Made by a program: the position numbers and the translations under genes | Source: a virus | Length of the DNA: 61,628 bases | Direction: 5' to 3' (one strand) | IMG/VR virus record: IMGVR_UViG_3300010391_000207 | Location: 1-61,628 of that record | Shown here: one piece after another, positions 18,137 to 54,423 of the stretch | How positions within the stretch are numbered: the first letter of the stretch is position 1 | How the letters are laid out: each line of letters starts with the position of its first letter | The notes under the pieces: generated by a model | Told to the model about the DNA's origin: nothing | Databases searched by the model: none | Seen by the model: the letters and a program-made list of their open reading frames with translations, nothing else

Positions 18137-18152
18137 CGTCTTACCCTCTCTT

Positions 18153-18374
18153 TCACTCACAAATCTCATCAATGACCCGTGAAAACCGTGCCTTGATCTT
18201 ATCTTTGGCGATTCGCTCGCCCGCCTCGACGCCGGCACGGAAGGCATTCATCAGGCGATTGTGCAGGTACTGGGCGGCGTGCCCATCGGGCAAGTGGAGC
18301 GTCTTCGCGTCGCCAGCAGATTGCCCCTGCTTCGATTGCACCCAATCTATCCATGCTTGCTGTTCCGCGTTCAT
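18153..18374 (-). CDS. hypothetical protein, 73 aa
   Basis: AGGAGATAGGCC before the ATG. Helical throughout with a conserved-looking RLMNAFRAGVEAGERIAKDK. Function unknown; located between the exonuclease and unknown genes. Confidence 0.65.
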   Translation of the reverse strand: MNAEQQAWIDWVQSKQGQSAGDAKTLHLPDGHAAQYLHNRLMNAFRAGVEAGERIAKDKIKARFSRVIDEICE

Positions 18375-31951: not shown

Positions 31952-33717
31952 CTTTGCCTCCGTGGCTCGTAGGTGCTCACAGATACGCCGTGGACATCCA
32001 GCATCATCGCTACGAGGAAGTTGGCGGATTCCTCGTCATCCAACAATTCTCGGGCCGTGTCCAAGGACAACGGTAGATACAACTCGCGAAGGTTCCCGAC
32101 AAACGTTGGTTTCTCGTCCGTAAAGCGATATTCCCCGGCCAATTGACTCAGAATCACGGAGGCAATGGGCGAGGCCTTGTTCTCCAGGAAATCTTCTGCC
32201 AAATCCAAGCCTGTCACACCAACGAACTTGCCCGTGTTGATCTGGACCCATTTACCCTTGGCATTCTTATAGTAGGCGTCTTTGCCTACGAACAGTGGGG
32301 CCAATCGGGCGGCCAGGCGAACCATCGCGCCCATGCCGCCGCCGATGTCGAATCGGGTGTTGCCCACCTTGATCTTGAAGGCATCCGTAGCTCTGGGGTC
32401 CCACTCCACGCTGTCATCGTCGAGCAGGTCGGCTATCGCCAGAATGATGGCTTGGGCCACAATGATCCGCAGCAGATTTTTGGCCGCTTCCCACCGCACG
32501 AATCCGGTGGCCGAACGATTGAACAGGTGGGCCGTCAAGTTGTCGAAATCCGCCTTCATCATTCGGCGGGACCAAAATGCATTGTCTATCAGAGTCGGTT
32601 TGTTTGATCGTCCGATCTCGCCCCGCCCGGTCAGGGAATTGACCAACTGGCCGATGGCCTCCAATTCCGTCTTGTCCGTCAGGTCTTTCCCGATCTGCCT
32701 GGCCTTGTGGAAGTAGTATTGGGCGGTCCTGTACCGCAACAGGTGCGCCGAGGCGGTGAAAGCGTTGTGGGACGCTTCAAAGGGCTTGCCGAGGAATGGG
32801 ATGCGGCTCGGAAGATCGGAAGGCATTTCTTCTTCAACGACCGACGTAGCGATCTTGGCCTTGCGCATCAGTTCGTAATCGGGGTCGGAGAGGATCTCCG
32901 CCCGGAGCTCGTCCATGACGGCCTGCCCCTTGCCCTTGAACGTCTCCCAAATGACCCGATAGGACCGGCCGAAGGTTTCCAGCCAGGCTTTTCCGGCCTC
33001 GAAATCGCCCGTCATGCCCTTGAAGAAGAGATTCCGGCCCTGTCGTCCGATGAGGCTATTGTCGATGGAGGAGCGTGCTTCCCTGGATGTTTCTGCCACG
33101 AAACCAAGTCCCTCTCCCAAGATGCGAAAAGGGTTTTCTGTGTATTCTGAGAACTTCCGGGACGCCCATTCCCCTGTGGTTTCATGTTCGGCGGCCGCCT
33201 TGACCGTAGAGACGTAGTTGTCGAACGCCACCAGCGCCCGGCCGTACTCCAGTTCCGTTTCGGGCGGTTTGTCCCCCACCTCGCGGCGCGGTCCAGCCTC
33301 CATCGTCTCTTTCTTGATGCTCACAGTCTGGGCCAAGGCCGTGATGTTCCCCGCCTCTTCCATCGTAACGGTAGTGCCCAGGGCATGGGCGGCCAAATCC
33401 TCTAGGAATGCGTCTTCCGTGTCCGGGGTAAGGATGTCCTCCATCTTGTTCACGCGGGCGACGAGCGATCGTTCGGCCTCCGGCCTCAATCCGGCGACCT
33501 GCTTGGCCCAGGTCACGAGGCCCTGCTGCTGATTCTTCAGGATCAGCTTGGATTCGAGCATGGCATTGGCCCACTGCGCATTCTCTGCACCCATGAATCC
33601 GGCGAAGAACGCCCGGCGCTGCGCCGAAGTCATGCCGATGAGTTTCTCCGGGTTGATTGTCCCATCCCGGATCATCGCCAGGAACTTGTCAGCAAGATTG
33701 CCTACAAGGCACCGCAT
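31948..33717 (-). CDS. large internal virion/polyvalent-type protein, 589 aa
   Basis: GAGGTGTTAA before the ATG. The C-terminal third (ATDAFKIKVGNTRFDIGGGM, then GAMVRLAARLAPLFVG) matches the tail-end domain of very large phage polyvalent or ejection proteins, here present as a separate gene. The rest is helical. Probably co-injected with DNA and working with the 1029-aa protein upstream. Nine nt separate the two genes, so they may be a split version of one gp16-like protein. Confidence 0.7.
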   Translation of the reverse strand: MRCLVGNLADKFLAMIRDGTINPEKLIGMTSAQRRAFFAGFMGAENAQWANAMLESKLILKNQQQGLVTWAKQVAGLRPEAERSLVARVNKMEDILTPDTEDAFLEDLAAHALGTTVTMEEAGNITALAQTVSIKKETMEAGPRREVGDKPPETELEYGRALVAFDNYVSTVKAAAEHETTGEWASRKFSEYTENPFRILGEGLGFVAETSREARSSIDNSLIGRQGRNLFFKGMTGDFEAGKAWLETFGRSYRVIWETFKGKGQAVMDELRAEILSDPDYELMRKAKIATSVVEEEMPSDLPSRIPFLGKPFEASHNAFTASAHLLRYRTAQYYFHKARQIGKDLTDKTELEAIGQLVNSLTGRGEIGRSNKPTLIDNAFWSRRMMKADFDNLTAHLFNRSATGFVRWEAAKNLLRIIVAQAIILAIADLLDDDSVEWDPRATDAFKIKVGNTRFDIGGGMGAMVRLAARLAPLFVGKDAYYKNAKGKWVQINTGKFVGVTGLDLAEDFLENKASPIASVILSQLAGEYRFTDEKPTFVGNLRELYLPLSLDTARELLDDEESANFLVAMMLDVHGVSVSTYEPRRQR

Positions 33718-39226: not shown

Positions 39227-39408
39227 GCCGCCCTTTCGAATGTTGAATCTTCGAAATTTGGTTGCTCGAGGATCATGGGCCCGGCGACCTTCGTTTTTGA
39301 CCCAATAATGCAGTGCACGTACCCAAAAACCGCATTTTCGACCTCGATAACGCGGGCCTGATCATCTTCGAAGCCGAGTCGTCGACAGTCTGTGTACGGA
39401 CCACTCAT
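39223..39408 (-). CDS. hypothetical virion-region protein, 61 aa
   Basis: ATG at 39408; ATGA overlaps on both sides. Mixed beta protein (ARVIEVENAVFGYVHCIIGS). Lower GC than adjacent genes. Unknown. Confidence 0.6.
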   Translation of the reverse strand: MSGPYTDCRRLGFEDDQARVIEVENAVFGYVHCIIGSKTKVAGPMILEQPNFEDSTFERAA

Positions 39409-42146
39409 TCGAACGTCACCTCCATATTCGCCGTGATCGACCGGATCGTCATGGGGACCGGGTCCCAAATCCACAAGTACACGTCCGGTTGCCGATTGGT
39501 CCCGCGCAGGAAAGGCGCCGGTCCCTTGTAGCTGGAGAACAGCCCCGGCGGCGTATTCGAGATTACCCATTCCGTCCCGTCGAACGTCTCGGCCACGTAG
39601 GGGGCCGTCAGGCGCAGTTCCACGTTGTTCGTGTCCGCCGCCAGGGTGTGCAGTCCATCGTAGTTCGTCGTGCCGTAGAGGTAGATTTCCTCCCCGGCCG
39701 CGAACGGCTCGCCGGAGTAGGGCAGTCCGACCGTCCCATTGGCGTCGCGGGCCGACCCGCTTTTCATCAGGAAGTCTTTCTGATAGAACCGCCAGTCCGC
39801 CGAATAGGTCATATCCGCGCCGACGTGGGCGCCCATCGTCTCGTGGAAATTCGCCTGGACGCTCTGAATCGTGGCTTGGCGCCCCAGCCCGGGTCCCCGG
39901 TGTAGGGACTCGGTTTCGAGGATGCTGTAGTAGTTCAGGCCGGCAATGACGACGCTATAGTCGGCCTCGTTGAAATCGGCGATGTCGTTGCGGTCCATCG
40001 TGAACGTGCCGCGCGGCAGGCCATCGGCGTAGACGCAGACCTGATCGATGATCTCCTGGGACGCCGGGGTCGATGGCAGATACCAGATCGCGTCGAAGTT
40101 CCATCCAGCGGCCTCGAAGTTATCCTTGGTCTGCAACCAGTTGGTTGTCTTAGCCTCAGCGATCAAGGAAGTATCCAAACTGGACGTCTGTGTATCGTAG
40201 TAGGAGGCCGTCACTGTAAAGACCGCAGGCGGGAAGTAAAACAAAGCGCCAAATCCATGCGAATCGCTGCCCGGCGGAATCTGGCCTGTGTATCCGCTGC
40301 CGGTCACGATGTCCGTCTGGGCGCAATAACAGTTCACAAATGACTGATCCGCTTTGTTATCCCACGAACCCACGAAGCCCGCAAAGCGAGAGTTGGCTGG
40401 GTATGATCCGTTGGCGATAATCGAGCCCCAGGCGTAGCAGTTTAAGATGTCCGACGCGATTGACGCATAGGTATTCACCGACCCCAGAAATCCCGCAACA
40501 TCAACGACTGACGTAGCGACGTTGCCCGTGATGAGAATATCGCCTTCCGACCACGATCTTTGGATTACGCTGGTTGTCCCGCTCGTATTGAGCTCGCCGA
40601 CGAAACCGCCTACATCAATAGCGGTGTCTATGTTTCCCGCAATTTCAATGTCGCCCGTGGCGTAGCAGCGCAAGACCTGAAAATCATAGTCTCCGTAGCC
40701 CGCAAATCCGCCAATATCCTGTACGTCGGCCGCAGTCCCCGTATCGTCAAGCGTGATCTTTCCAGTGGCCCAGCAGTTCGTGTAGGTTTCATTGCATGAA
40801 GTGTTGCCGAGAAATCCTCCTATCCTGTAGTAACTCGCCGGAGTAACCCACACGCCACCCGCTGAAAAGGTCAAATCCCCAGTTGCTGCGCATGATGTCG
40901 CCGCCAGATTCGTTACGTATCCGCCAAAGCCACCAATCCCAGAGGACGCGAACCGAGAACCGCCACTCGTGCCAGTCTGGAGGATATCCATACTCGTAGA
41001 CGAATCAAATATCTGATTCCAGCGGGATGCCCCCCCGGATGCCGTGATTGAGCCTATAAAACCACCGGAGTTCAATGTCACTGGGGTATTCAGAATCAGG
41101 TTGCCGCCTACAACATCGCAATCGATGATGTAGTTCGTAGTCAGCATTGCCTCTCTGTGAGCACCCATAAGGCCGCCGACAAGGCCGACCTGAGTTGTCC
41201 CCTCGCCCGTGACAGTGCAGTTCGTCGCCGTACAATTCGCAATGTACGTAGCCTCAACATTGGTCCTACCGAACAGAATGCCCAGGTATTGAGGATAGGT
41301 TCCGGTTCCTGTGACAGTGCAATTCTCCAGATGGATATCCCTGACAAGAAACGTACTCGAATCCGGCTGGAAATCACCGCAGAAAACGCCGACTTCCCTG
41401 TAGGCGCTTACGGAGCAGTTATTGAAGTTCAGATTCCGGATCTGCCCGCCACCCGCCCCATCGATCAGACTGATGAAACCTGCATGCGTTGCGCCGGCCG
41501 AGGTCAACGTTAGACCGGAAATCGTGTGATTGTTGCCCTCGATGACGATCGCGCTGGCACTGTTGAAGACAAGTGGGGTCCAGACCACGCCGATCAGGTC
41601 AATATCCGCGTCGATGCTATAGTGGTGTCCGGGGTGCATCGCCTGTAAACCGGCCGCATCGGTCACGCTGACGGGCGTGACGAGTTCGGTGTCCGCAGGG
41701 AGCGCTGGCGCGTCCGGTATCTCTGCGTCCGTCAACTCCTGTAGAGTTGGGTACTGGCCACGCCCACTGCAAGTATATCTTCGTCCGCAGTCTACGAACC
41801 AGCAGTAATTGGGATCATCGCCCCAATCGAGGGATTGGAACTGCTCGATGTACCGGACATCGTTCCCATCCACCGTCCGCTTGGCTACTACCCAGACCTC
41901 ATCATCGTGCCGGGCATCGCCGTTGGCCCGGTTACTCGATCCGGGAATGACCGCCACCGACTCGAACTTATCGAAACTCGTTAGGTCGTTGGGGTCCTGG
42001 CCGGTGATGTGCCGCGCCCAGGCAAGGATACTGCCCTCATCAATCGACTGGAGCATATCCCGCTGCTGCCCCGTCGGCCCGCTGATCATTCCCAGCGTTG
42101 CCACCGGAAGGAGCAGCCACAGAAGATAGTAGGGCCGCCGCTTCAT
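39405..42146 (-). CDS. tail protein paralogue carrying a GLUG beta-domain insertion, signal peptide
   Basis: 913 aa. Residues 1-23 look like a Sec signal peptide (KRRPYYLLWLLLPVATLG). Residues ~80-118 and the last ~200 are clearly related to the C-terminal third of the gp12-like protein encoded upstream (shared EVW-x-V-x-(K/Q)RT, VRY-EQFQ-L-WG-D, CWFVDCG, and PV-(P/M)-TIR-I-A-(D/N)-EVT at the end). Between them ~570 residues consist of GLUG-type repeats (GGFVGELN, IGGFGGYV, VGGLMGAH and others) with many Cys, a beta-solenoid seen in adhesins. Likely a receptor-binding tail component. Confidence 0.75.
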   Translation of the reverse strand: MKRRPYYLLWLLLPVATLGMISGPTGQQRDMLQSIDEGSILAWARHITGQDPNDLTSFDKFESVAVIPGSSNRANGDARHDDEVWVVAKRTVDGNDVRYIEQFQSLDWGDDPNYCWFVDCGRRYTCSGRGQYPTLQELTDAEIPDAPALPADTELVTPVSVTDAAGLQAMHPGHHYSIDADIDLIGVVWTPLVFNSASAIVIEGNNHTISGLTLTSAGATHAGFISLIDGAGGGQIRNLNFNNCSVSAYREVGVFCGDFQPDSSTFLVRDIHLENCTVTGTGTYPQYLGILFGRTNVEATYIANCTATNCTVTGEGTTQVGLVGGLMGAHREAMLTTNYIIDCDVVGGNLILNTPVTLNSGGFIGSITASGGASRWNQIFDSSTSMDILQTGTSGGSRFASSGIGGFGGYVTNLAATSCAATGDLTFSAGGVWVTPASYYRIGGFLGNTSCNETYTNCWATGKITLDDTGTAADVQDIGGFAGYGDYDFQVLRCYATGDIEIAGNIDTAIDVGGFVGELNTSGTTSVIQRSWSEGDILITGNVATSVVDVAGFLGSVNTYASIASDILNCYAWGSIIANGSYPANSRFAGFVGSWDNKADQSFVNCYCAQTDIVTGSGYTGQIPPGSDSHGFGALFYFPPAVFTVTASYYDTQTSSLDTSLIAEAKTTNWLQTKDNFEAAGWNFDAIWYLPSTPASQEIIDQVCVYADGLPRGTFTMDRNDIADFNEADYSVVIAGLNYYSILETESLHRGPGLGRQATIQSVQANFHETMGAHVGADMTYSADWRFYQKDFLMKSGSARDANGTVGLPYSGEPFAAGEEIYLYGTTNYDGLHTLAADTNNVELRLTAPYVAETFDGTEWVISNTPPGLFSSYKGPAPFLRGTNRQPDVYLWIWDPVPMTIRSITANMEVTFE

Positions 42147-44575
42147 TCGACTGTGACCTCCAAATCGGCCACGATATTGCGGATGGTGAGCGGCACCGGG
42201 CTGGCTTCCTGGAGATACAGCGAAGGCGCCCGCGCTGTCCCCCGTGGGTACGGGATGGCCTTCACGCCGGACCAGACCGGAATCGTCGTCGCGAAGCTGT
42301 CGGACGAGAACTTCAGGTCGGCCAGGTAGGTCGCGTCCGCGCCCGCATGGCAGCCTAAGGTCTTATAGAAGTTGATGGTCAGGGCGTTGACCCGCGTCGG
42401 CCTACCCAGGCTGTCGGACTCGTTCAAGGACACCACAATGGGCATCGTCTGCAGAATGGACGTGTAGGGCAGGCCGATAGTCGTATTCGTGTAGCCGGAG
42501 GCGGCCGGACTCAAGGCGCCGCTCGCTACCGTGTAGCCGTTGGCTTCCACCGGCCGGGCGTCGGCGAAGAGAGAGACCGTGGCCCCCTCAAGTTGCGCCA
42601 GGCTCGCCTGATTCGTGCCCCCGCAGTCCACGAACCAGCAATCGTTTTGGTCCGTGCCCCAGTTGAGGGGCTGGAACTGCTCTACGTAGCGGACGGAATT
42701 GGAGTCAATCGTCCGCTGCACCACGGCCCAAATCTCATCCTCGTTCGTTCCGGGGATCCGGGCCACGGACTCAAAGTTGTCCGCCCCGTTGGGTCCGGTC
42801 GTCTGCCGGGACCAGGCCTCGACCGCGTGCTGGCGGTGGTAGGTGAAGGACAGTAGTACGCCATCCTCTCGCACGCACCACAGGATGGGGTCCGGGCGCT
42901 CCTGGAAGTCGATCTGGGTGATCCCATCGCCGGTGATGTGCTCGGCTAAGATCGTCATATCCGGGGCGATGTAGCGGTCGGAGGAGTAGGTATAGGTCAG
43001 TTCCCGGACCTTCTGCGCCCCCCGCTCAACGTAGAGAACGGCGTCCACGGCCGCCACCGCCTGGATGTACGCACTCCCGTTCTTGGCCTGGAGCCGGTAG
43101 ACAGGCGGCCACGTCGGGTCGATGGGCTTGTCGGGACTGCCCAGCCGCCCCACGCCCGCCGAGGTGCCGACCATCAGGTACTCCCGGCTCTTCATCCACT
43201 GGATCGGGTTCATGCCCGGTAGTACGTAGGTCCAGGCGTCCGCCGCATCGCCGAGTCCGGTATCGAAATCGTCGTAGTCGTCGTCCTGGCTGCTGGTGAT
43301 ACTGGCCCAGATCGTCTGGGGCCACGCGGCATTGCCCCCGTAGAGGCACCGCTGCTCATGGTGCTCCACGGTGCGCGGCCAGCCGCGGTAGGTGCTCCAC
43401 GCTCCTTCCGCCCAGCGCCAGGTCGGCTCCGTCGAGGCCAGGCTGACCTCCACCGTGCCGATGACCTCGTTGGCGTCGGTATAGGCAGTAATTTTCACGA
43501 CCCCATGGCGCAGGAAGGCGTCGGTGGAAAGAGTGAACTCGCACTTGCGCTCCCCGTGATCGTGCATATTGCCCGTGATGTACTGGTCCTCGATCCGCAC
43601 GCGGTAGAGGGCGTCGTCCTCCGGCTCCATCCCGGAATACAGCACGTTGCCGTTACCCTCGTAGGCACAGGCTTTGATGGTGTTCCACGTTACCCCATCA
43701 TCGTAAGACCGTTGAATCTTGAAAGTGCCGTACCAGTCGCCGGCCGTCGTGACCGTGTACGCCTGATGGCGATAGACGGTCAGCGACTCGCTATTGCCGT
43801 CGTAGTACGGCACCCCAGCCTCTTCCACGCCGTAAGCGTTCACGTCCCAGGCGTACCACGGACCCCAGAAGCGCCCGCGCACGGTTTCGCTGTCCAGCAG
43901 ATGGGTGATCTGCCAGAGTGCTCCGACGTGGTTGGCGTCGAAGATATTGGCGTCGGCGACGAGGTTCACGTCCCCGGTCGTCGCGTCGGCGTAGATGGTA
44001 TAGTTATGGTTCGTGTTCTCGTCGATGAACGGGCCGTTGTTGAAGTCCACGGCGGCAAGCGTCCAGTCGGTGTGACTGGCGGTATTGCGGGTCAGTTTGT
44101 ACGGGGGATAGTCAGGGTGCACCAGCCGCATCGTCTCGGCGTCCTGCACGAACTGGATCTCGAACAGGTCGTTGGCGTCCCAGGGGGCATTGACCTCGTA
44201 GGCGTTGGGACCGCTCGTTACCTGCGCCCCGTTGCGGTAGAACCGAACGTACTCGTCGCCCAACTCCAGGATATAGGCGTCCGAGGTACTGTACTCGAAC
44301 GGAATGATCCGCACGGCGTCGTGACTGTCCTTGACGGTCGCGATGTACTTGGTGCCCGGCCGGCGGGTCACCGGACCCTGCGCCCGGACGATCATATTTT
44401 GTAAGGTCTGCGCCCCGCTCTTGTACTTGGCGAAGTCGATGCGGCTCTGCATCAGGGGCGACATCTCGCCGGCGTTGAAGCTGGTCAGCGAGATACTCTG
44501 CTTGAAGGTGGCCCCCAGCGCGATGGCGCTGAGGATGGATAAGACCGGGACGATGATATTCCATTTGATTTTCAT
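42143..44575 (-). CDS. tail tubular protein B, T7 gp12-like, with signal peptide
   Basis: 810 aa. After a 21-residue Sec-like signal (KIKWNIIVPVLSILSAIALG) comes the canonical opening of this family: SLTSFNAGEMSPLMQSRIDF, then YKSGAQTLQNMIV and a QGPVTRRPGTKYIA block. No start codon lies between the signal and this block, so the hydrophobic N-terminus belongs to the protein. The remainder is a large beta-rich tail nozzle. TAATG overlap with the gp11-like gene. Export of a virion tail protein would be very unusual. Confidence 0.85.
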   Translation of the reverse strand: MKIKWNIIVPVLSILSAIALGATFKQSISLTSFNAGEMSPLMQSRIDFAKYKSGAQTLQNMIVRAQGPVTRRPGTKYIATVKDSHDAVRIIPFEYSTSDAYILELGDEYVRFYRNGAQVTSGPNAYEVNAPWDANDLFEIQFVQDAETMRLVHPDYPPYKLTRNTASHTDWTLAAVDFNNGPFIDENTNHNYTIYADATTGDVNLVADANIFDANHVGALWQITHLLDSETVRGRFWGPWYAWDVNAYGVEEAGVPYYDGNSESLTVYRHQAYTVTTAGDWYGTFKIQRSYDDGVTWNTIKACAYEGNGNVLYSGMEPEDDALYRVRIEDQYITGNMHDHGERKCEFTLSTDAFLRHGVVKITAYTDANEVIGTVEVSLASTEPTWRWAEGAWSTYRGWPRTVEHHEQRCLYGGNAAWPQTIWASITSSQDDDYDDFDTGLGDAADAWTYVLPGMNPIQWMKSREYLMVGTSAGVGRLGSPDKPIDPTWPPVYRLQAKNGSAYIQAVAAVDAVLYVERGAQKVRELTYTYSSDRYIAPDMTILAEHITGDGITQIDFQERPDPILWCVREDGVLLSFTYHRQHAVEAWSRQTTGPNGADNFESVARIPGTNEDEIWAVVQRTIDSNSVRYVEQFQPLNWGTDQNDCWFVDCGGTNQASLAQLEGATVSLFADARPVEANGYTVASGALSPAASGYTNTTIGLPYTSILQTMPIVVSLNESDSLGRPTRVNALTINFYKTLGCHAGADATYLADLKFSSDSFATTIPVWSGVKAIPYPRGTARAPSLYLQEASPVPLTIRNIVADLEVTVE

Positions 44576-45471
44576 TATCCTTGCGTCCTTCGTTCAAAGA
44601 CCGTCAGCGGCCGGGTCCGGTCCTTATGGGTGTTCTGCGCGGCCCAGGCGCCGGGCTTGGCCAGTGCTTCGTACTCCTTCAAGAGCCACGTCCGCCGCTC
44701 GTAGTCCTTGGCGTCCAGGCACATTTCCGCCGCGAGTCGGGTGGCCAGGGCCGCCTTGAAGGACTCCGGGTAGTATTGCGGCTGGTCGCTGCGGCCGGCC
44801 GTGCCCCCGGAAGTCGTCTGGACGTAGGCTAAATACTTGATGTAGGCGCTGTCGCCGTCCTCGTTCGTCAGGTCGTTCGAGGCCAGCAGGAAGCCCGTTG
44901 AATCGTTCTCGTAGGCCACGGCTTCGGCCCAGGCCGCCCCGAGACTGCCGTCCTCGTCGTAGAGCGTCCAGTTGCCGTCCCCATCGTTGTCCGGCGGTTG
45001 GCCGTCGCTGGCATTGTCAACGCTCGTATGGTCGGTATCGCAGTAGTAGGCTTGGTCGTCCGTGCCCACCACGACATGGGAGTAGCCCTTGAAGAACATC
45101 AGGTCGCAGTCGTAGAAGGTGCTGGGCTTGCCCTCGGCCACTTGCCCCACTAAGGCCAGAAAGTCGGCCGGTAGCTCGAACAGGTAACTCCATCCTCCGC
45201 AAGCGTGATTGACCTTGCGCGGTTGGCCCTGATCGGCGAAGTCGCCGGCGAAGTCCGGCTGGATGTCCTCCAGGACCTGCTTGAGGATGGGTTCGTAGAG
45301 CATGACGGCCAGCCGCTTGTCGGCCTCACTGCCCACATCGATGGTCGTCCAGTCGGCGAACTCCGCGTCTGTGATACTGGTGAACAGCAGGGAAGCGTCC
45401 GCCGTGCGTCCGCCGACGAGAATGGCCAGGGCACGGTTGACGATGGCTCTTTTTGAAGCGTTGTCCGCCAT
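44575..45471 (-). CDS. tail tubular protein A, T7 gp11-like
   Basis: 298 aa. N-terminal KRAIVNRALAILVGGR, a helix ending in LYEPILKQVLEDIQPDF, YLFELPADFLALV and a C-terminal SFKAALATRLAAEM helix follow the gp11/gatekeeper family order. An acidic Asp/Gly/Asn-rich insert (DNASDGQPPDNDGDGN) lies in the middle. AAGGAGCCATT before the ATG. No signal peptide, unlike its neighbours. Confidence 0.85.
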   Translation of the reverse strand: MADNASKRAIVNRALAILVGGRTADASLLFTSITDAEFADWTTIDVGSEADKRLAVMLYEPILKQVLEDIQPDFAGDFADQGQPRKVNHACGGWSYLFELPADFLALVGQVAEGKPSTFYDCDLMFFKGYSHVVVGTDDQAYYCDTDHTSVDNASDGQPPDNDGDGNWTLYDEDGSLGAAWAEAVAYENDSTGFLLASNDLTNEDGDSAYIKYLAYVQTTSGGTAGRSDQPQYYPESFKAALATRLAAEMCLDAKDYERRTWLLKEYEALAKPGAWAAQNTHKDRTRPLTVFERRTQG

Positions 45472-45483
45472 AATGGCTCCTTG

Positions 45484-47309
45484 CTACGGGTCCGTCCCAT
45501 CCTGTTGATAGTGCGTGACATCTCCCGCCCCCTGTCCGGTCGTGCCGGTCCTGTCGAAATAGTAGACTGGGCTCTTGGAGGCCGCGAGACTGCTGCGCAG
45601 CTCGTACAAAAAGCCGCCATAGACCGGCCCAAGGATCCAGACTTTACCCCGGCCTCCGGCGTGAAGCTCAGCGGCTCATCGACCGTGACATCCCGGCTGG
45701 TGACGTACTGCTCGATCCACCGGACCTCACTATGGCTGTCCGTCGCGTCCTGGACCATGATGGCGTGCACCCAGTAGGCGTCGTTGACATCCTGCCCCGC
45801 TGTGATCGTGAAGTTGTTGGCGTCGTTCGGCACGGCCACGGTCGTCGTGACCACGGCCAGCAGGTCCGTCATCAACTTGATGGCGGCCAGCACGACGCTG
45901 TTGGCGTCCATGCCGGCGACGACCTTATCCCCGATCTCGGATAGTCCCAGCTCCAGGAGCAGCGGATTGTTCACGTTGTCGAGGTATACCGCCCGCGTCG
46001 AGGTATACCCCTGGCCGGTCATGGCCGCTTGGATGTCCGCCAGGGTCAAACCGCCGCCGGGCGTGCTCGTATCGGCCACCAGGCTGCCGGTCGGCGTGAA
46101 GGCATAGTAAGTGGTCGTATCAGGCGATGCCCCCGACCAGTTGCCCGTAATGGCCAGTGTGTCGTTGGCGTCCCAACTGTCGCGCACGCCGTATACGTCT
46201 CCGCTGGAACCTGTCCCGCTGCGCAGGACCACGAAGCCCGTGAGATTGTCCGCCGTCACATCCCCACTGGCCAGTTGAATGGTATTCGACGTGCCGCCCT
46301 GGCCGACTCCTTCCGCCGAGAAATAGGAGGTCGGCGCAATCTCCAGCGCATAGGTCGTCGTGGCGTTCGGGATGCCCAGCGGCCAGGTGCCCGCGATAGT
46401 CATGGTCCTCGTACCGCCGATGTAGGCCAATCCGATCTGGTTCGTCGGCGCGCCCGTGCCAGTCAGGAGCCGGATCGTGCAGGGGATGTAGGCGTTGTTA
46501 TCGGTCGAGGAATCGGCCTGCAGGACGATGGTATTCGACGTTCCGCCCGCCTGCGCGGTCCCGGAAATCGTCAGCGGGTCCCCGCCGCCCGAACGCTGCG
46601 CCCACCATCCCCAACTGTTCTTCTTCTTGTTGTTGGAGAGAAGATCGTCCTCGATCTCGTCGATGAAGGAGGCGGCTAACTCGTCGCTGGTGAAGGCGTT
46701 CGTGGCAATGGCCGCCGCCGTCAGGGCGTTATTGGAGAACGAACCGACCTTGACGGCCGTGGCGTCGAGGTCCATCACCGTCGTGTCCTCATCGAGGGCC
46801 GTCAGGATCCGCGTCGCGTAGCCCCAGATATCGGCCGGCGTCACGGCTACGGCGCCGATTTCCGTGAGGATGTCGGTCAGGTTGGGATCGCTCGCATTGT
46901 ACCGGGCGTTCCAGGCGCTGCCGGTCAGCACGTAAATATAGGGCGGCGTGAAGAAGTAGTTCGGGTCCGTGCCGGTCAGATTGGGGTCGTTCACGTCCAG
47001 AACAAGGATTCCCGGCGTGCTCGTATCGGTCGCGTCGAGGTTACAGGAGAACATTCCGCGCGCCAGATGGGCGGGCGCGGTCCCTTCATGTTTATTGGCG
47101 AAGGCTGCGCCATTCTTCGACAGTTGGATGTCCGTCGCCCCCAGGGTCAGGGCGGTGGCCCGCGCCCCGTTCGGGTCCCAGAAGGGTCCGATGGTCAAGG
47201 TGACCGCCGTGGATTGCTTGACCTCGATCCCGCTCGCGACGGACAGGAAGAAGAATCCGAGCAGCAGAGTCAGGAACAGGACGATGCCGATTTTGAGGGT
47301 ATTCTTCAT
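45484..47309 (-). CDS. large beta-rich tail/appendage protein with signal peptide; frameshift near the 3' end
   Basis: About 608 aa if frameshift-corrected. GGAGGCGCAGACC before the ATG. Signal-like start (KNTLKIGIVLFLTLLLGFFF) followed by beta domains with repeated TSNTI-x-LASG and TTTYxxEI-type units (two SNTIVLQ/SNTIQLA blocks). At 45647-45650 a CCCC run (GGGG in the coding strand) marks a -1 shift. The downstream frame gives VWILGPVYGGFLYELRSS and ends at 45484, just before the gp11-like gene, whereas the uninterrupted frame runs to 45150 through that gene. Confidence 0.7.
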
Positions 47310-48046
47310 GGTCTGCGCCTCCGTTCCTCCTGGTAAAGGCGGTGGATGATGCGCCGGTCGGCGGCGGGCGGCGGGGCTCCGCCTTCCCCAGCCCCGAGCA
47401 CTTGGACGCCCGCCAATTCCACGCGGGGCATAGGCTGGGAGCCGATGATCTGGACGCCCGCCAATTCCACGCGGGGCATAGGCTGGGAGCCGATGATCTG
47501 GACGCCCGCCAATTCCACGCGGGCCAGGGGAGCGCCGAGGATCAACTCGAATTCGGCGACCTCCGTGTATGTGCCGCCGTTGTCGGCCGTGATATTCAGC
47601 CGGTAGCCGCGATAGGCGGTCGTGTTGGCGAAGCTGAACGTCCGCTGCTCGCCGTCGCCCCAGGCCGTCTGGTCGGCGGGCGCGCTCAGATCGGTATAGG
47701 TCGAGCCGTTGTAGCCCTGGAGCTTGAAGGTCTTCGGGGCGCCCGCTTGGTTGCCCGCCCCGCTGCGGGCGGTGATCGTGCAGCTCGTGACGATCTTGGT
47801 ATTGTAGCCGCCCCAATCGTACATGAGCCAGCACGTGCCCGAACCGGCGTCGGTCGTGCTCCACCACGTCGCGGCGGCGTCGTCCAGCGACTTCCAGGCG
47901 TAGTAGGTGCTGGAGAGTTGGGTACTGGCCGAAGCAGTCCCGGAAGGCGCGGTGTTGCTCGTCATGTCGGGTATCGCGTCCGCCCCCAGGGCGGCCGAGA
48001 CCGAAACGAGCAGGAGGCCTATTGCAGACAGCAGCCGATCTTTCAT
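47306..48046 (-). CDS. F5/8 type C (discoidin)-like carbohydrate-binding appendage protein, signal peptide
   Basis: 246 aa. Signal peptide KDRLLSAIGLLLVSVSAALG with an ALGA cleavage area. Residues ~30-170 follow the discoidin/galactose-binding order (ASASTQLSSTYYAWKSLDDA, ATWWSTTDAGSGTCWLMYDW, GAPKTFKLQGYNGSTYTDL, YRGYRLNITADNG). A 48-bp tandem repeat then gives a 16-residue unit (VELAGVQIIGSQPMPR) nearly three times. ATGA coupling to the next gene. Probably binds host surface glycans. Confidence 0.8.
   Translation of the reverse strand: MKDRLLSAIGLLLVSVSAALGADAIPDMTSNTAPSGTASASTQLSSTYYAWKSLDDAAATWWSTTDAGSGTCWLMYDWGGYNTKIVTSCTITARSGAGNQAGAPKTFKLQGYNGSTYTDLSAPADQTAWGDGEQRTFSFANTTAYRGYRLNITADNGGTYTEVAEFELILGAPLARVELAGVQIIGSQPMPRVELAGVQIIGSQPMPRVELAGVQVLGAGEGGAPPPAADRRIIHRLYQEERRRRP
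47403..47524. repeat. 48-bp tandem repeat, 2.5 copies
   Basis: Two identical 48-bp units (starting TGGACGCCCG at 47403 and 47451) and a partial third (47499-47524). In frame (16 codons) inside the discoidin-like gene; copy number may vary by slippage. Confidence 0.9.
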
Positions 48047-48056
48047 TTTCTCTCCG

Positions 48057-49205
48057 TCAAGGGGCCGTCAATTCCGTGGTTTCCCAGCCGAGTTCCGCAC
48101 TGCCCAGCGCCGCCGTCGTCCAGGCATCGTTCGGCGGCGAGAGGGCGGGGTTCTTGTACCAGACGTATTCCCGCAGATCGCACGTGTCGGCGGGCAACGT
48201 CACCTCATCCCCGTAGTACCGCGTCCCGCCGATCTTCACGTAGGGCCTGAACTTGGCGGTGCCGCCGCCGGGATTGCGGCAGTAGGCCCGGATAGTCACG
48301 GCATGAATCGTCGTGAAGGAATTCGGCGTGATCGCGACCCCCGCCCGCTGGCCGACGGTGTCGCTCTGCGTGTAATTGGTCGCGTAAGCGGACCCCACGA
48401 CGTTGATCGACTGATAAACCGAGGCCGCCGTGTGCGTCCAATCGTGGCCGGTGCCGTCAGCGGTGGGCAGGTGACCGTCGAGTTTTTGGTCGCCGAGCCG
48501 GTCGTTGAAGGGGGCGTCCCCGGATGAATCGAGAATGTAAAGATCATCGTAGTAGGTGTTGAAGGAAGTAGTACTCGCCTGTCCTCCGAGCATCAACTGA
48601 CCGAACCCGCCCGCCCCGGATTGGCGTAGATTCAGACTGGAAGTCAAAGCGATTTTCTCCACCCCATCAACCCAGACCTGCACCGTATCCGTCCCATCGC
48701 AGGTGAACTGAACCTCCAAAAACTGAAATACGTCAAACGTAATCGCTCCGTCCGCACTCTCGGCCAGCACCGCTCCGCCGTAAGCGGCCTTCACGCGAAT
48801 CCGACCGACGTTCGTTACGTCGAGACAAAATTGCGTCGCGGCCGCGGCGGAGCGCACCCGAATCATCTCCGTGCTCGCCGCGGCACAATATTGCGGCTTC
48901 ACCCGCACGCCGAACACGCCGTCCACCTTATCCGCCGGTAGGCGCACGCCCCAATAGTAACCACTCTGGACACCGTTCGCGTTTCCGGATATATAGAGAC
49001 ATGGCCCGCCTCTGGCGCCGAACGAGGTAGCTAAATAGGCAGCGCCGGCAGCGAACATGCGTGAATCCAAAACACAGTTGGTGGTGGCCCACGGTCCGTT
49101 ATAGCCGTAAAGATCGAATCCTTCTTGAATCAGCAGAGCCGCGGGAGCGGGACGGAGAATCCAGGAAACGAGGAAAAGCGCCGACAGGATTAGGCGTCGC
49201 ATCAT
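48057..49205 (-). CDS. lectin-like appendage protein with signal peptide, 382 aa
   Basis: AAAGGAGTTTCGCC before the first of two ATGs. Signal peptide MRRLILSALFLVSWILRPAP followed by ALLIQEGFDLYGY, the start of a concanavalin/laminin-G-like phage domain (FQFLEVQFTCDGTDTVQVW, YYDDLYILDS). No alternative start follows the signal. C-terminal beta domain with Asn/Thr-rich strands. Likely tail appendage. Confidence 0.7.
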   Translation of the reverse strand: MMRRLILSALFLVSWILRPAPAALLIQEGFDLYGYNGPWATTNCVLDSRMFAAGAAYLATSFGARGGPCLYISGNANGVQSGYYWGVRLPADKVDGVFGVRVKPQYCAAASTEMIRVRSAAAATQFCLDVTNVGRIRVKAAYGGAVLAESADGAITFDVFQFLEVQFTCDGTDTVQVWVDGVEKIALTSSLNLRQSGAGGFGQLMLGGQASTTSFNTYYDDLYILDSSGDAPFNDRLGDQKLDGHLPTADGTGHDWTHTAASVYQSINVVGSAYATNYTQSDTVGQRAGVAITPNSFTTIHAVTIRAYCRNPGGGTAKFRPYVKIGGTRYYGDEVTLPADTCDLREYVWYKNPALSPPNDAWTTAALGSAELGWETTELTAP

Positions 49206-49218
49206 GGCGAAACTCCTT

Positions 49219-49611
49219 TTACTTCACCAGATAGAGCATCACGTCCACCGTCATGCCGGACGCCCCGGGATCGTCGGAAGGCGTGATCGTCGCCGTCAGT
49301 ACGCCGGTCGCCAGGAAGGGATTGAAGCTGGCGTCCTGGACGGCCTTATAGCTGCGGGCAAAGTAGGTGGTCGTCGCGGCCTCGGCGATCCCGGCCTGCG
49401 TGAACAGCGTCACCCCGTTCTCGTCCGTAATCGTTACCGTGGCCGTGCGGTTGCCCGTGTTGTCGTTGACGGCGACGGCGATCTGCTCGCACACGCCGTT
49501 GACCTTCATGGTCTTGGCCACGGCGGCCGTCACGCCATCGGCCCAGGTCGCCTGCGCGAAGTCCAGCCGGGCGACGGGTTGTTTGTCGGCGCGATAATCG
49601 TTACTTGCCAT
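49219..49611 (-). CDS. structural protein, 130 aa
   Basis: AAAGGATAACGC before the ATG. Beta-sandwich composition (TATVTITDENGVTLF, VLTATITPSDDPG, TVDVMLYLVK). No signal peptide. Probably a small tail or head-surface protein; family not recognised. Confidence 0.7.
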   Translation of the reverse strand: MASNDYRADKQPVARLDFAQATWADGVTAAVAKTMKVNGVCEQIAVAVNDNTGNRTATVTITDENGVTLFTQAGIAEAATTTYFARSYKAVQDASFNPFLATGVLTATITPSDDPGASGMTVDVMLYLVK

Positions 49612-49634
49612 GCGTTATCCTTTCCGGTTCCAAA

Positions 49635-49748
49635 TCAGGGGTCCTGAGAATCGTCCCGCGCCGGGTACACGTACAGGTGCCCCGTCGCCTGGTAGACGCG
49701 TATCACCTGCCGCTGCTGCCAGCGGGGCCAGCGATACAGTTCTACCAC
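49635..49748 (-). CDS. short basic/aromatic protein, 37 aa
   Basis: GTG start overlapping the upstream stop by 7 nt (GTGGTAG). Rich in Trp, Tyr, Arg and Gln (ELYRWPRWQQRQVIRVY). Small virion-region protein of unknown role. Confidence 0.5.
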   Translation of the reverse strand: MVELYRWPRWQQRQVIRVYQATGHLYVYPARDDSQDP

Positions 49749-50278
49749 AGGAAAGGGAGATATTCGTCCGGGACATAACCCGCTCCCACAATGGTGTAGC
49801 GATTCACTTTCGGCTGTCCGTTCTTGCCCGGCTGCGAGACGGCATCGACCACGATGTACCAGGGGCCGGGCACCGAGGCCGCTTCCAACCGCCAGGTCTT
49901 CGATTTCTTCGTATTGGCGTCCTGGTCCACGAACGCCGCCAGGCCCACCGTCGTCGTCCCCTCCACGGAGACGATCCGGACCTCCTTGACCCAATCGTTC
50001 GTGGGACCCCAGCGGGTCAATAAGCCGCAGGGCACCAGCCACAGGTCCGGGTCGTTGGCCGCTTTGAGCGGATCATGGAGGGCCGGCAGCAACGTGCCCT
50101 TGATCTTCGTGCTGTCCCACGGCCAGCCGGCCGGCAGGTCGTTCACCGAGTAGGTTCGATCCGTTTGGCCCAGCAGGTACGACGCCAAGCCCGGCGCGAC
50201 GTGCGTTAGTTTCTCTCCGCCCCAGGTTAGCGCCGCCGGCAGCAGGAGCGCCAAAAGCCAAAGTGTTTGTCGCCGCAT
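49742..50278 (-). CDS. secreted-type virion-region protein, 178 aa
   Basis: AAGGGTAATTCG before the ATG. Clear signal-like start (RRQTLWLLALLLPAALTWGG). The mature part is beta-rich with VRIVSVEGTTTVGLAAFV and PGPWYIVVDAVSQP. No family recognised. One of the cluster of signal-bearing late genes. Confidence 0.65.
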   Translation of the reverse strand: MRRQTLWLLALLLPAALTWGGEKLTHVAPGLASYLLGQTDRTYSVNDLPAGWPWDSTKIKGTLLPALHDPLKAANDPDLWLVPCGLLTRWGPTNDWVKEVRIVSVEGTTTVGLAAFVDQDANTKKSKTWRLEAASVPGPWYIVVDAVSQPGKNGQPKVNRYTIVGAGYVPDEYLPFLW

Positions 50279-50303
50279 CGAATTACCCTTTCAGATAGGC
50301 GGC

Positions 50304-50340
50304 CCGGCCGGATGGCCTGTGGAGGAGCGAATCCGGCCGG
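50304..50340. other. intergenic 10-bp hairpin
   Basis: CCGGCCGGAT and ATCCGGCCGG are perfect inverses with a 17-nt loop, between the fiber gene and the next leftward gene. No T-run follows, so a processing or stability element is more likely than a terminator. Confidence 0.6.
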
Positions 50341-50358
50341 TGTCCGCAACAAAGCCCC

Positions 50359-51702
50359 TTAAATCTCGCTGACCGTCACCCAAACACTGGCAATCTCAAT
50401 GTCCGTCGTCGCGGCCGTTGTGCCTGTCACCAAAATATAGAAGGACTCATCCAGGGCCACGACCTCGGCCAACGAACTCTTGCCATCGGTGGAAATGATC
50501 TTGTAATCGGCCGTTTTGGAAATCTGGGTGATCGCGCCAATACTCGCATCCGCGTACCCGGCGGTAGCTTCCGTATGCTTGCGCAGATCGGCATCCAAGG
50601 TCGCCGTATTGCCTGCCGAGTCGATTTGACCGTTGAGGCCAAACGCCGTGATGGTCCAACCGACTTTTAGAGGTATCGTGATCGGGATGACGATATTCTC
50701 GGCGGTCTGAGTCGCCGGCAGGGTAGCCAGACAAACACTGTCCGCCGCTCCCAGGACCCAGCCGGCACCGGAAGCACCCAGCTTGGCGTAGGCAATCGTT
50801 TGGACATAGGTTTGCGACGCGCGGGACACATTGCCCGTAAGAACGATCCCGCCGGACCCCGCCTGGATCGTCGTTGTGGACGTTCCATCGGTACTGCCCA
50901 CCGTCACTGTCTTCGCGGCCGCGCCCGTGCCAATATCAATAGCTTGGATACTGGCCCCGGTCCCCACGGAAACCGTCCCCGTAGAGCTTCCGGTGGCAAT
51001 ATTGACCGCGAAGTTGGAGCTCGGATTGAGGCTGATTGCCGCGCCATTGATCGTGGCGCCCCCCTGGCCCGTAAGCAAACCGCTCATTCCCAAGGTAGTT
51101 ACGCCGCTCACGACCCCGGCGGTTGTCACATTCAGGCCCGTGGAGGTGACGGCAAAACTGGCGGTAGCGGCCCCGATGGCAATGGCCGGCGTGTCGCCGT
51201 TGGTGCCCATGATGAGGTTGCGCCACGCGGTGCCGTCCACGTCGTACACCTGGAGTCCCAGCACTTCCGCCGTCGTGGTGCTCGGCCGGATGTACTCGCC
51301 GTTGGTCATGGCAATGTCGCTGGTGATGGTGCCGCCGGCGAAACTTCCGGCGTTCGCCACCCAGGACAGCACCCCGGCGTCCGTGGAGCTCAGGACGTAG
51401 CCGGTGGTAGCCGCGTAGGCCGTGGGCAGGGTCAAGGTCAGATTGGCCGACTGGTTGCCGCCCTGAACCTTCGTGTAGTAGGTAGCCCCGGTACTCTCAA
51501 GGATCCGAATGGCGTCAAACGCCGTGATTCCCTCGTAGAGTCCCTCGACGGTGCCCCAGAGGTTGTAGAGCGCGTCGTTGGTGCCGCCCGAGCCGAGATA
51601 GCCCCGGTTGTTGACATAGTACGCTTGATCGTAGGTCATGGCCCCGTACAGCGTCCCGCACAGGGCCGCGAGCAGCAGGGCAACGAGAATGGTGCGTTTC
51701 AT
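50359..51702 (-). CDS. tail fiber-like beta-repeat protein with signal peptide, 447 aa
   Basis: GGAGATTCACAC before the ATG. Signal peptide KRTILVALLLAALCGTLYG, then a fiber-type body of short Gly/Thr/Ser/Val strands (VSVGTGASIQAIDIGTGAAA, KTVTVGSTDGTSTTTIQAGS) typical of trimeric fiber shafts. The C-terminal ~130 residues form a different globular beta domain. An internal ATG after the signal lacks a good ribosome binding site. Confidence 0.75.
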   Translation of the reverse strand: MKRTILVALLLAALCGTLYGAMTYDQAYYVNNRGYLGSGGTNDALYNLWGTVEGLYEGITAFDAIRILESTGATYYTKVQGGNQSANLTLTLPTAYAATTGYVLSSTDAGVLSWVANAGSFAGGTITSDIAMTNGEYIRPSTTTAEVLGLQVYDVDGTAWRNLIMGTNGDTPAIAIGAATASFAVTSTGLNVTTAGVVSGVTTLGMSGLLTGQGGATINGAAISLNPSSNFAVNIATGSSTGTVSVGTGASIQAIDIGTGAAAKTVTVGSTDGTSTTTIQAGSGGIVLTGNVSRASQTYVQTIAYAKLGASGAGWVLGAADSVCLATLPATQTAENIVIPITIPLKVGWTITAFGLNGQIDSAGNTATLDADLRKHTEATAGYADASIGAITQISKTADYKIISTDGKSSLAEVVALDESFYILVTGTTAATTDIEIASVWVTVSEI

Positions 51703-52316: not shown

Positions 52317-53306
52317 TCACGTCACGGTGCTCTCCGAAGTGCTGATGGCATCGCAGCGGAAGATCGGGGCGTTGCCGAACATCAGGACCTCCTGGCCGGA
52401 CAGACCTCTCTCCACGGCGAAGTTCACGTTGTTCTTGTCCTTGAGCCGGATCTGCATCTGCGCCCTGATCTCTTTGGTGCAGAGGATCGTGGTGCCTTCG
52501 CGGAAACGCCCGTAGTTGAGCAGTTCGATCAGGTCGTTCTCATCGAAGGTGTTGGCGCCGCCGACGGTCGGGTTGATATTGGCGACGCGGCCCGCGGCCA
52601 ATTCATCCCGGCCCACGAGTCCCAACCACCACTGAAATTGCGTGCGGTAGACGAGGTAGGGGTTGCTGTTGCTGTCCAGCGTCCAGACCGTGCCGTTGCC
52701 GCCGTCCGGGTTGCTGTTGATCTTGAGGCCGAGCGTGCCGCGGTCCGTCACGCCGCTGGGGTAGATCAAGTACCAGGCGTTGGGGTTGAAATCGACCACG
52801 TAGATCGACGTGCCGCCGGCGTTGCCGCCGTCGAAGACCATCGTTTGCGAGAGACTGTTGTAGTACTGCTGGAGCCCGTCGAACTGTTCCGGGGCACTGG
52901 TGGAAGTCCCGGTGATGATGGAGTCCCAGATCTGCTGGCTCATGCCCTCGACGAACGCCATGTCCTCCTGCCGGCGGGTGCCCTTGGGGTCCTCGCTGGT
53001 GTCGATGAGCGTGGCGTCCACTTCCGACAGGGCCTCCAGGAGGGCCGTGTTGAAGGTCTGGGCCTGCGTGGTCGAAGCCTTCGCGGCGACGCCCTGGTAG
53101 GCCTTGCGCCAAGTTCCGCTGGGCAGACTGGTTCTGCGGTTGATCTTGTGGGAATAGCGCTGATTGCACTGGACGGCGGGGATGCGTGAGAGTTCGGGAT
53201 TGACCTCGTTCATCGCCTCGAAGATTTCCACGAGGCCGCCGCCGGGCGCGGTGCGCTTGGCGAGTTCGCCGAAGCTGAGTTTGGATGCGATGTTTACTTC
53301 CGACAT
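52317..53306 (-). CDS. major capsid protein, Bbp17-like
   Basis: 329 aa. Features of this HK97-fold group: an N-terminal region with GGLVEIFEAMNEVNPELSRI, TTQAQTFNTALLEALSEVDA, FVEGMSQQIWDSIITGTS, a CSIYV-like strand (GTSIYVVDFNPNAWYLIYP), GLVGRDELAAGRVANI and a C-terminal beta segment. Its ribosome binding site AAGGAG lies within the 3' arm of a long hairpin (53307-53365), so translation may be regulated. Confidence 0.9.
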   Translation of the reverse strand: MSEVNIASKLSFGELAKRTAPGGGLVEIFEAMNEVNPELSRIPAVQCNQRYSHKINRRTSLPSGTWRKAYQGVAAKASTTQAQTFNTALLEALSEVDATLIDTSEDPKGTRRQEDMAFVEGMSQQIWDSIITGTSTSAPEQFDGLQQYYNSLSQTMVFDGGNAGGTSIYVVDFNPNAWYLIYPSGVTDRGTLGLKINSNPDGGNGTVWTLDSNSNPYLVYRTQFQWWLGLVGRDELAAGRVANINPTVGGANTFDENDLIELLNYGRFREGTTILCTKEIRAQMQIRLKDKNNVNFAVERGLSGQEVLMFGNAPIFRCDAISTSESTVT

Positions 53307-53475: not shown

Positions 53476-54423
53476 TTATCTCGGAGGAAGTACAAGCCTC
53501 CTGGGACCAATCACTTGTTTCTCTGTCTGCGGCGGTTCCACCCAGAAGCGGAACGCCTCCCGGGCCGCCGAATACTCGACGTTGAATTTCACGTCTTTGG
53601 GGTACTCTTCCAACATCTGGGCCGAGATCATCACCCCTTGGGTCTTCGTCACCTGCTGGAACTTCGTCAGCAGGACGTGTACCAGGGTCCGCATGTCGCC
53701 CGGCTCCAGGCGGGGAGGGTGCTCCGCGTCCTTTCCCAGGCAGCAGCGCTTGTACTTCTTTCTGCGTTCTCGTAAAAGGGCCATCTGGCTCAGACGCTCA
53801 CGGTGTTCGTGTGAGAAAATTCGCTTCCCGTTATCGTCATAGGTTGACTCATAGCCACGCTTCTGCACGTCCCTGGCGTGCTGGTGGCATCTTGTGCAAA
53901 GCCCGTTGCCAGCGTGTTTTCTATCGGTGGTTCCGCATTCCGTACAATGTTCGTAATCCCGCGACCACTGAGCAAGGACATGCTCTTGTCGATGCTCGGA
54001 GTTCGTGACTACCTTCAGATTTTCAAGTCGATTGTCGTCTTTAATGCCGTTGATGTGATGGATGAATTCTGTGGCAGTCAGAGGGCATCCCAAGTATCGC
54101 TCCATGACGGCTCGATGTTCAAGCACGCGGCGCGTTCCATCCCAAATCTCGACATACCCATCCTCATTGTAGACCGGGCCATCGAGAAAACTACCGTTGA
54201 GTTCGCCCGTTGCGGCTTGCGACTTCGATCTCACATGCAGACCGTGTTTGGCAAACCACCTGCCGACAGTGCGAGCATGGACGCCCACCAGAGCGCCAAG
54301 TTCTTCCAGCGTCTTTCCAGACTCGTACAAACCGTGCAGGACGAAGATGTCCAGAACCTCTTCAGTAGACCCGCAGGGGCAAGGCTCGTTGCGGCCGACC
54401 GGTTTGTCGTTCGGGGCGATCAT
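53476..54423 (-). CDS. SEC-C motif protein interrupted in frame by an HNH endonuclease
   Basis: 315 aa. Residues 10-19 ([10 protein letters not shown]) and 222-230 (KKYKRCCLG) are the two halves of one SEC-C zinc motif, normally contiguous. About 603 bp (53764-54366) lie between. They encode a helix-turn-helix ([19 protein letters not shown]), an HNH core ([20 protein letters not shown]) and a Cys cluster (HCTECG...CTRC). The insert is a multiple of three and open, so a fusion is made unless it is spliced. Intein ends (Cys/Ser start, His-Asn end) are absent. The remaining ~115-aa host protein lies between scaffold and capsid genes. Confidence 0.8.

Follow-up and report, generated by a model that had tools for sequence, protein, structure and literature searches.

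The window, i.e., the whole stretch of DNA analysed (IMG/VR virus record IMGVR_UViG_3300010391_000207, 61.6 kb), carries all its late genes on the minus strand. These encode the terminase, portal, protease/scaffold, capsid and cement proteins, fibres and related late products, a gp11-like adaptor, a gp12-like nozzle (phrog_376) with a partial nozzle paralogue, and internal virion and ejection proteins. The window also encodes a DnaB helicase, a YqaJ-type exonuclease and a tyrosine integrase, and no lysis genes were recognised anywhere in it. Cultured relatives of its capsid and nozzle were found in BcepC6B, BPP-1, epsilon15-like and Pelagibacter HTVC010P-like podoviruses; the window phage is itself a podovirus, with these same phages as relatives. 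Between the capsid/cement and the ejection genes, seven of nine genes start with a Sec-type N-terminus (Table 1), and no other gene call in the window was positive.

Table 1. Late products with and without signal-type N-termini, and related features (slash, predicted cleavage site; caller, score of the signal caller).
Feature	Position	Strand	Signal	Remarks
Fibre-like protein, 447 aa	50359..51702	-	51702-51643 (MKRTILVALLLAALCGTLYG/AMTY)	caller 4.81
Late product, 178 aa	49742..50278	-	50278-50219 (MRRQTLWLLALLLPAALTWG/GEK)	caller 3.81, weak c-region
Lectin-like fibre (phrog_2448), 382 aa	48057..49205	-	49205-49140 (MMRRLILSALFLVSWILRPAPA/ALLIQEGFDLYG)	caller 4.69
Discoidin-like (F5/8 type C) tail protein, 246 aa	47306..48046	-	48046-47984 (MKDRLLSAIGLLLVSVSAALG/ADA)	caller 4.54
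Late tail-module protein	45484..47309	-	about 47309-47229 (MKNTLKIGIVLFLTLLLGFFFLSVASG/IEV)	caller 4.86; likely C-terminus
gp12-like nozzle (phrog_376), 810 aa	42143..44575	-	44575-44513 (MKIKWNIIVPVLSILSAIALG/ATFKQSISLTS-FNAGEMSP)	
Partial nozzle paralogue with GLUG insert, 913 aa	39405..42146	-	42146-42090 (MKRRPYYLLWLLLPVATLG/MIS)	caller 3.45 (weak)
Nozzle paralogue in L003	12504-15002			
Nozzle paralogue in L005	12540-14399			
Major head protein (phrog_212)	52317..53306	-	none	caller negative; homologues 0/43 with signal
gp11-like adaptor (phrog_394)	44575..45471	-	none	caller negative; homologues 0/16 in the clade, 0/40 outside
Late product, 130 aa (MASNDYRADKQ...)	49219..49611	-	none	caller negative
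SEC-C protein, window	53476-54423	-		
SEC-C protein in L002	2143-2493			
SEC-C protein in L003 record (G010)	17216-17266			
82-93 aa protein, L005 record	18059-18307	-		
82-93 aa protein, L003 record	32598-32879			

Signals were scored with a rule-based caller of our own (positive n-region, apolar h-region, small residues at -3/-1), which was calibrated on a 49-kb E. coli stretch, where it found 10 of 13 known signals and called 1 of 29 other proteins positive. The earlier note had described seven late genes with such N-termini from the letters alone, and all of them were recovered at their minus-strand places and called positive, each with K/R in the n-region followed by an apolar core and a small-residue site, so that by the caller all seven carry the sequence features of Sec/signal peptidase I substrates (n-region, h-region and -3/-1 residues). 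Five scores were strong (4.5-4.9) and two weak, namely those of the 178-aa late product and the GLUG paralogue. The gp11-like adaptor, the 130-aa late product, capsid, portal, protease/scaffold and ejection proteins were negative. The background in the window was low (6 of 385 other ORFs of at least 60 aa, and 0.14% of internal positions), and the probability of at least seven positives among nine genes is about 4e-10 at a false-positive rate of 2.7%. No lipobox ([LVI][ASTVI][GAS]C) for signal peptidase II was present at the end of the h-region in any of the seven window N-termini, a motif found in a few small or fibre-region genes of relatives, and by inspection the Tat motif (S/T)RRxFLK with a long n-region was absent from all seven, their n-regions being short. 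The predicted mature N-terminal peptides include ATFKQSISLTSFNAGE, AMTYDQAYY and ALLIQEGFDLYG, the last being that of the lectin-like fibre (Table 1).

Regarding the individual products, the signal of the fibre-like protein and the block following it are kept in the relatives L002 (MKRFLFLLSTALLVMSCVAPCIGAVTYDQAYY) and L005 (MKRILLFCSVLVLLFCTSAEAAMTYGADYY), and its C-terminal half is 83% identical to a signal-bearing fibre of L172. No family match was obtained in profile searches for the 178-aa product. In the lectin-like fibre, the phrog_2448 match begins at residue 27, corresponding to profile position 5, and the first residues of its homologues in cultured viruses correspond to the predicted mature N-terminus (MGVVLLEGFDYYWD in Kharn/Lucius, MTLLWQDGFDQYG in virus S20). 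The homologues in the Sphingomonas phages Kharn and Lucius, in the latter of which the protein is annotated as "putative tail fiber", cover nearly the whole length of the window protein, but start at its mature residue and belong to phages of a different tail type. The discoidin-like protein matches PF00754 at the limit (28.3 bits against a cut-off of 28.2) and the tail protein phrog_17517 at residues 21-169; its C-terminus contains near-perfect tandem repeats (PRVELAGVQIIGSQPM) that overlap the start of the next gene. The ORF of the protein starting at 47309 meets no stop before 45150 and thereby runs across the adaptor gene. A protein-like C-terminus is encoded in a different frame, with its stop at 45484, which implies a frame change near 45642-45653, at GCCGGGGTAAAG; this may be a frameshift or a sequence error, and the C-terminus given in Table 1 is the likely one. 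The GLUG paralogue matches both PF07581 and phrog_376, and a partial duplication of the C-terminal part of the nozzle, with an insert, follows the nozzle gene in three clade members (Table 1).

The gp12-like protein matches phrog_376 at full length (E=1.3e-173), with residue 25 at profile position 3. Its AlphaFold2 model (pLDDT 74) has a separate helix at residues 2-20 and a first strand at 23-30, and its fold matches 8ck1_A (E=2e-47) and the solved nozzles of Carin-1, LME-1 and T7 gp12. By profile and fold, the protein is a genuine podovirus tail nozzle and a structural tail protein. Four IMG/VR relatives with 50-73% nozzle identity keep signals on the nozzle and on the positionally matching fibre genes, with divergent signal letters; the nozzle signal is conserved in L002, L003 and L005, and A19-x-[G/A]21 is conserved in the window clade. 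A wider scan gave 80 nozzle loci, and a tree was built from 67 viral nozzles with the signal region left out. In this tree, the 21 signal-bearing nozzles all fall into one group of 26 rows (SH-aLRT 96), and the trait needs 4 changes compared with 18.2 for shuffled labels (0 of 500 shuffles). Outside the group, unsignalled nozzles start with M and about eight residues followed by FNAGE, whereas the signalled ones present the same stretch after about 20 extra residues, so that 6-13 residues are left before FNAGE after predicted cleavage, compared with 7-15 in unsignalled nozzles. Taken together, the tree, the position of the prefix, the separate helix and the nozzle fold indicate that the signal has been added to an otherwise ordinary tail protein.

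All seven window starts have a purine-rich Shine-Dalgarno-like motif in front of them; six were scored by script, and that of the nozzle, which lies outside the spacing window of the script, was recognised by eye (GAAGGA 10 nt and AAGGA 2 nt upstream). The later ATGs of the fibre (ATG22, missing in L002) and of the discoidin-like gene (ATG28) lack such a motif. In the nozzle gene, no ATG, GTG or TTG occurs until codon 38, already inside the first conserved block. These data, together with an apolar character that is conserved across 20 loci despite sequence divergence, make it highly improbable that the start codons are miscalled and the apolar stretch untranslated, even if in L019, L028 and L035 an ATG lies four codons ahead of the motif and the terminase ORF of the whole L003 record, also called positive, has an ambiguous start where an upstream ATG mimics a signal. 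Starts downstream of the apolar segment in related phages, which the earlier note had named as grounds to abandon its claim, were not what we found within the clade, and outside it the segment is simply absent.

The length of an apolar core does not discriminate a cleaved signal from an anchor, and the long cores of two window N-termini, those of the nozzle (20) and of the 47309 protein (23), as well as the precision of the prefix, would suit uncleaved anchors equally well; indeed, the core of the 47309 protein, being longer, could alternatively be an anchor. Under such a reading, the inner membrane would hold nozzle and fibres on its periplasmic side, where heads would dock for tethered assembly, and the protein with a lipobox or TM N-terminus and a coiled coil that adjoins the big fibre gene in L003 and L005 might point the same way. 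However, most cores (median 16) look like those of signal peptides in E. coli and are followed by small-x-small sites, A19-x-[G/A]21 is conserved in the nozzle, and an uncleaved helix on each nozzle subunit would enter the virion; we thus consider anchoring unlikely. The adjoining proteins themselves, of 82-93 aa (Table 1), are candidate spanins or envelope anchors.

Some short-tailed phages penetrate membranes by hydrophobic tail-tip segments, as is known for phi29 gp9, and the apolar N-termini might likewise act in the virion, for instance in membrane penetration at DNA ejection, and only look like signals. Against this, the segments are also present on the lectin-like, discoidin-like and fibre proteins, always form the very N-terminus, preceded by K/R and followed by small residues, and are missing from the unsignalled homologues, all of which leaves a function of this type very unlikely.

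The same architecture was found in fibres. The T7-type fibre N-domain (phrog_1640) was found in six clade loci, all six with a signal, although none was identified in the window. In the fibres of L019, L028 and L035, profile position 3 lies directly behind the signal, at residue 22-40, and in those of L025 and L008 the match starts from profile position 12-13. In contrast, residue 1 of the unsignalled HTVC010P fibre corresponds to phrog_1640 position 1, and the alignment of the Pelagibacter fibres with that of L028 begins at residue 22 of the latter. In three unrelated tail families (nozzle, lectin-like fibre and T7-type fibre N-domain) the signal is prefixed where the unsignalled homologues begin. 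The Pelagibacter phages HTVC010P, HTVC035P, HTVC100P and Lederberg, whose nozzles are the best-scoring cultured relatives (about 35% identity) and whose T7-type fibres are homologous, differ in that their nozzle (MARVAVQLTN-FTGGELSP) and fibre (MTISSTTVKN...) both start without a signal.

Across the clade, the caller found no signals on the terminase (0/2), portal (0/9), capsid (0/11), adaptor (0/16), acetyltransferase-like (0/10) or gp15-like (0/3) proteins, 0/51 for these six roles together, and found them on 19 of 21 nozzles and 6 of 6 T7-type fibres, whereas outside the clade the counts were 0/46 for nozzles and 1/12 for fibres, the single case (L062) being nested inside the signal group. 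Two of the 14 gp14-like internal proteins in the clade also scored positive (L007 and L008). Neighbouring genes carried signals in 44 of 188 cases in signal-nozzle loci compared with 10 of 367 in other loci (p=5e-14), counts that rest on a greedy gene list including some spurious ORFs. The signal boundary coincides with the head-tail joint: proteins on or in the head lack signals and those distal to the adaptor have them, with few exceptions among ejection proteins. The earlier observation that virion tail proteins are signalled while head and adaptor are not holds in the window and, beyond what could be seen there, clade-wide, and such a partition is hard to explain by chance or by miscalled starts.

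Signals on fibre-type genes and not on the nozzle were observed in L062, L079/L090 and L172, and one end-of-contig gene is signalled in L042. These cases show that the tail need not be exported as a whole, and suggest that signals may have arisen first on fibres. Apparently, fibres that are exported can be paired with a nozzle that stays in the cytosol, and late mixing fits this better than a fully periplasmic assembly line.

Several signalled proteins are adhesin-like (discoidin-like, lectin-like, GLUG), and the signals could alternatively serve exported non-virion copies acting as decoys or receptor blockers (in superinfection exclusion or release from debris), with virions using another form. 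Export of a protein encoded in the tail region is known for lambda Lom (PMC12309495), and Lom and similar exported morons resemble the window genes as signal-bearing products among tail genes, but Lom is inserted in the outer membrane of the host instead of forming part of a tail. The nozzle, in turn, is not an adhesin, and its lack of a start between signal and motif means that no cytosolic form can arise by internal initiation, in the window or in most relatives. Furthermore, a second, signal-free nozzle copy was not seen, the window paralogue being partial and itself signalled, and fibres retain the T7-type N-domain for tail attachment. This explanation, therefore, appears quite improbable. 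From the meanings proposed by the earlier note, envelope-side assembly fits best, while decoy adhesins alone leave the nozzle and the fibres with attachment domains unexplained.

Cysteine contents were also compared. Signal-bearing proteins in the window contain 1.14 cysteines per 100 aa versus 0.50, and across 21 loci the difference is borderline and not significant (p=0.055); an excess, as expected for oxidative folding, leans the right way and is suggestive only. Separately, the YxSGC cysteine of the nozzle (window residue 55) is present in 41 of 46 unsignalled versus 11 of 21 signal-bearing nozzles, a pattern possibly reflecting the loss of an unpaired Cys after export.

By membership, the window encodes a tail module of the T7/epsilon15/BPP-1 kind, sharing gene order and homologous nozzle, adaptor, capsid and portal with T7 and epsilon15-BPP-1-BcepC6B-type podoviruses; it differs in the signals on nozzle and fibres, as in the cultured examples examined both proteins lack the signal that the window clade prefixes. 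No nozzle with a signal was found among the cultured phages examined. Scanning cellular genomes with the signal-clade nozzle alignment gave 52 loci, and sampling 392 genomes of Planctomycetota, 384 of Omnitrophota and 388 of Verrucomicrobiota added further nozzle loci. The start was readable in about 80 of these cellular nozzles, and all of these lacked a signal. The nearest host lead is L079/L090 (G001:C3, about 8.8-50 kb), a prophage with integrase and repressor integrated in an Omnitrophota chromosome. As judged by eye, its flanks carry ruvC/ruvA-like genes at one end and groEL and ribosomal-protein genes at the other end. Two of its tail-module genes and some small neighbours are signalled, and its nozzle is not. 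Homology between the window 47309 protein and a signal-bearing 502-aa gene of this prophage was considered and rejected, as only a 12-residue match was found. No report of signal peptides on tailed-phage nozzles or fibres was found in the open-access papers searched.

Between the protease/scaffold and capsid genes lies a gene for a protein with SEC-C, the zinc motif of the SecA tail (Table 1). The motif is uninterrupted in L002 (above the Pfam cut-off), L003 and L038, and in the window about 200 aa of HNH endonuclease interrupt it in frame, with no Rfam match to a group I or II intron at the insert. Of the 20 signal-nozzle records, three (L002, L003 and L038) had a SEC-C protein above the Pfam cut-off, versus 0 of 29 unsignalled ones, the records being fragments. 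The motif is common in bacteria, and its possible tie to the Sec pathway in this clade is a lead and not a result.

Tailed phages are taught to assemble entirely in the cytoplasm. Here, we find it fairly probable, on present evidence, that the distal tail is exported by Sec and is attached to completed heads either at the envelope side or upon a breach of the inner membrane. Tail precursors (nozzle, fibres and related late products) would cross the inner membrane via Sec, signal peptidase I would cut the signal and restore the N-terminus found in homologues, and the mature proteins would fold in the periplasm, while heads with portal and gp11-like adaptor would be filled in the cytoplasm. Heads would then receive nozzle and fibres only envelope-side, most simply when the inner membrane is opened in a holin/lysis step, allowing the two pools to mix. 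A fuller scheme, in which morphogenesis runs in two compartments, virions are completed after the inner membrane opens and the SEC-C protein may help to route tail precursors, has in our estimate slightly less than an even chance. A point against distal-tail export is that full heads without tails would have to hold their DNA until lysis; possible gains could include protected or oxidative folding, envelope modification, separation of tails from heads until lysis, and receptor blocking. In working principle, the signalled tail proteins resemble the M13 minor coat protein G3p, a virion protein of a filamentous phage made as a Sec preprotein (PMC8310372), but M13 is assembled at the inner membrane during extrusion, whereas the window belongs to a dsDNA phage that has a tail and a filled head.

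In conclusion, precise and conserved signals on nozzle and fibres, and not on capsid, portal and adaptor, point to a part of a tailed virion being made across a membrane, and raise the questions of whether podovirus heads can gain their tails after export and whether lysis is also the last assembly step. For annotation, a phage gene with a signal peptide need not be a moron or an endolysin. Should the exported proteins indeed become part of the virions, this would be a categorically new assembly route for tailed phages.
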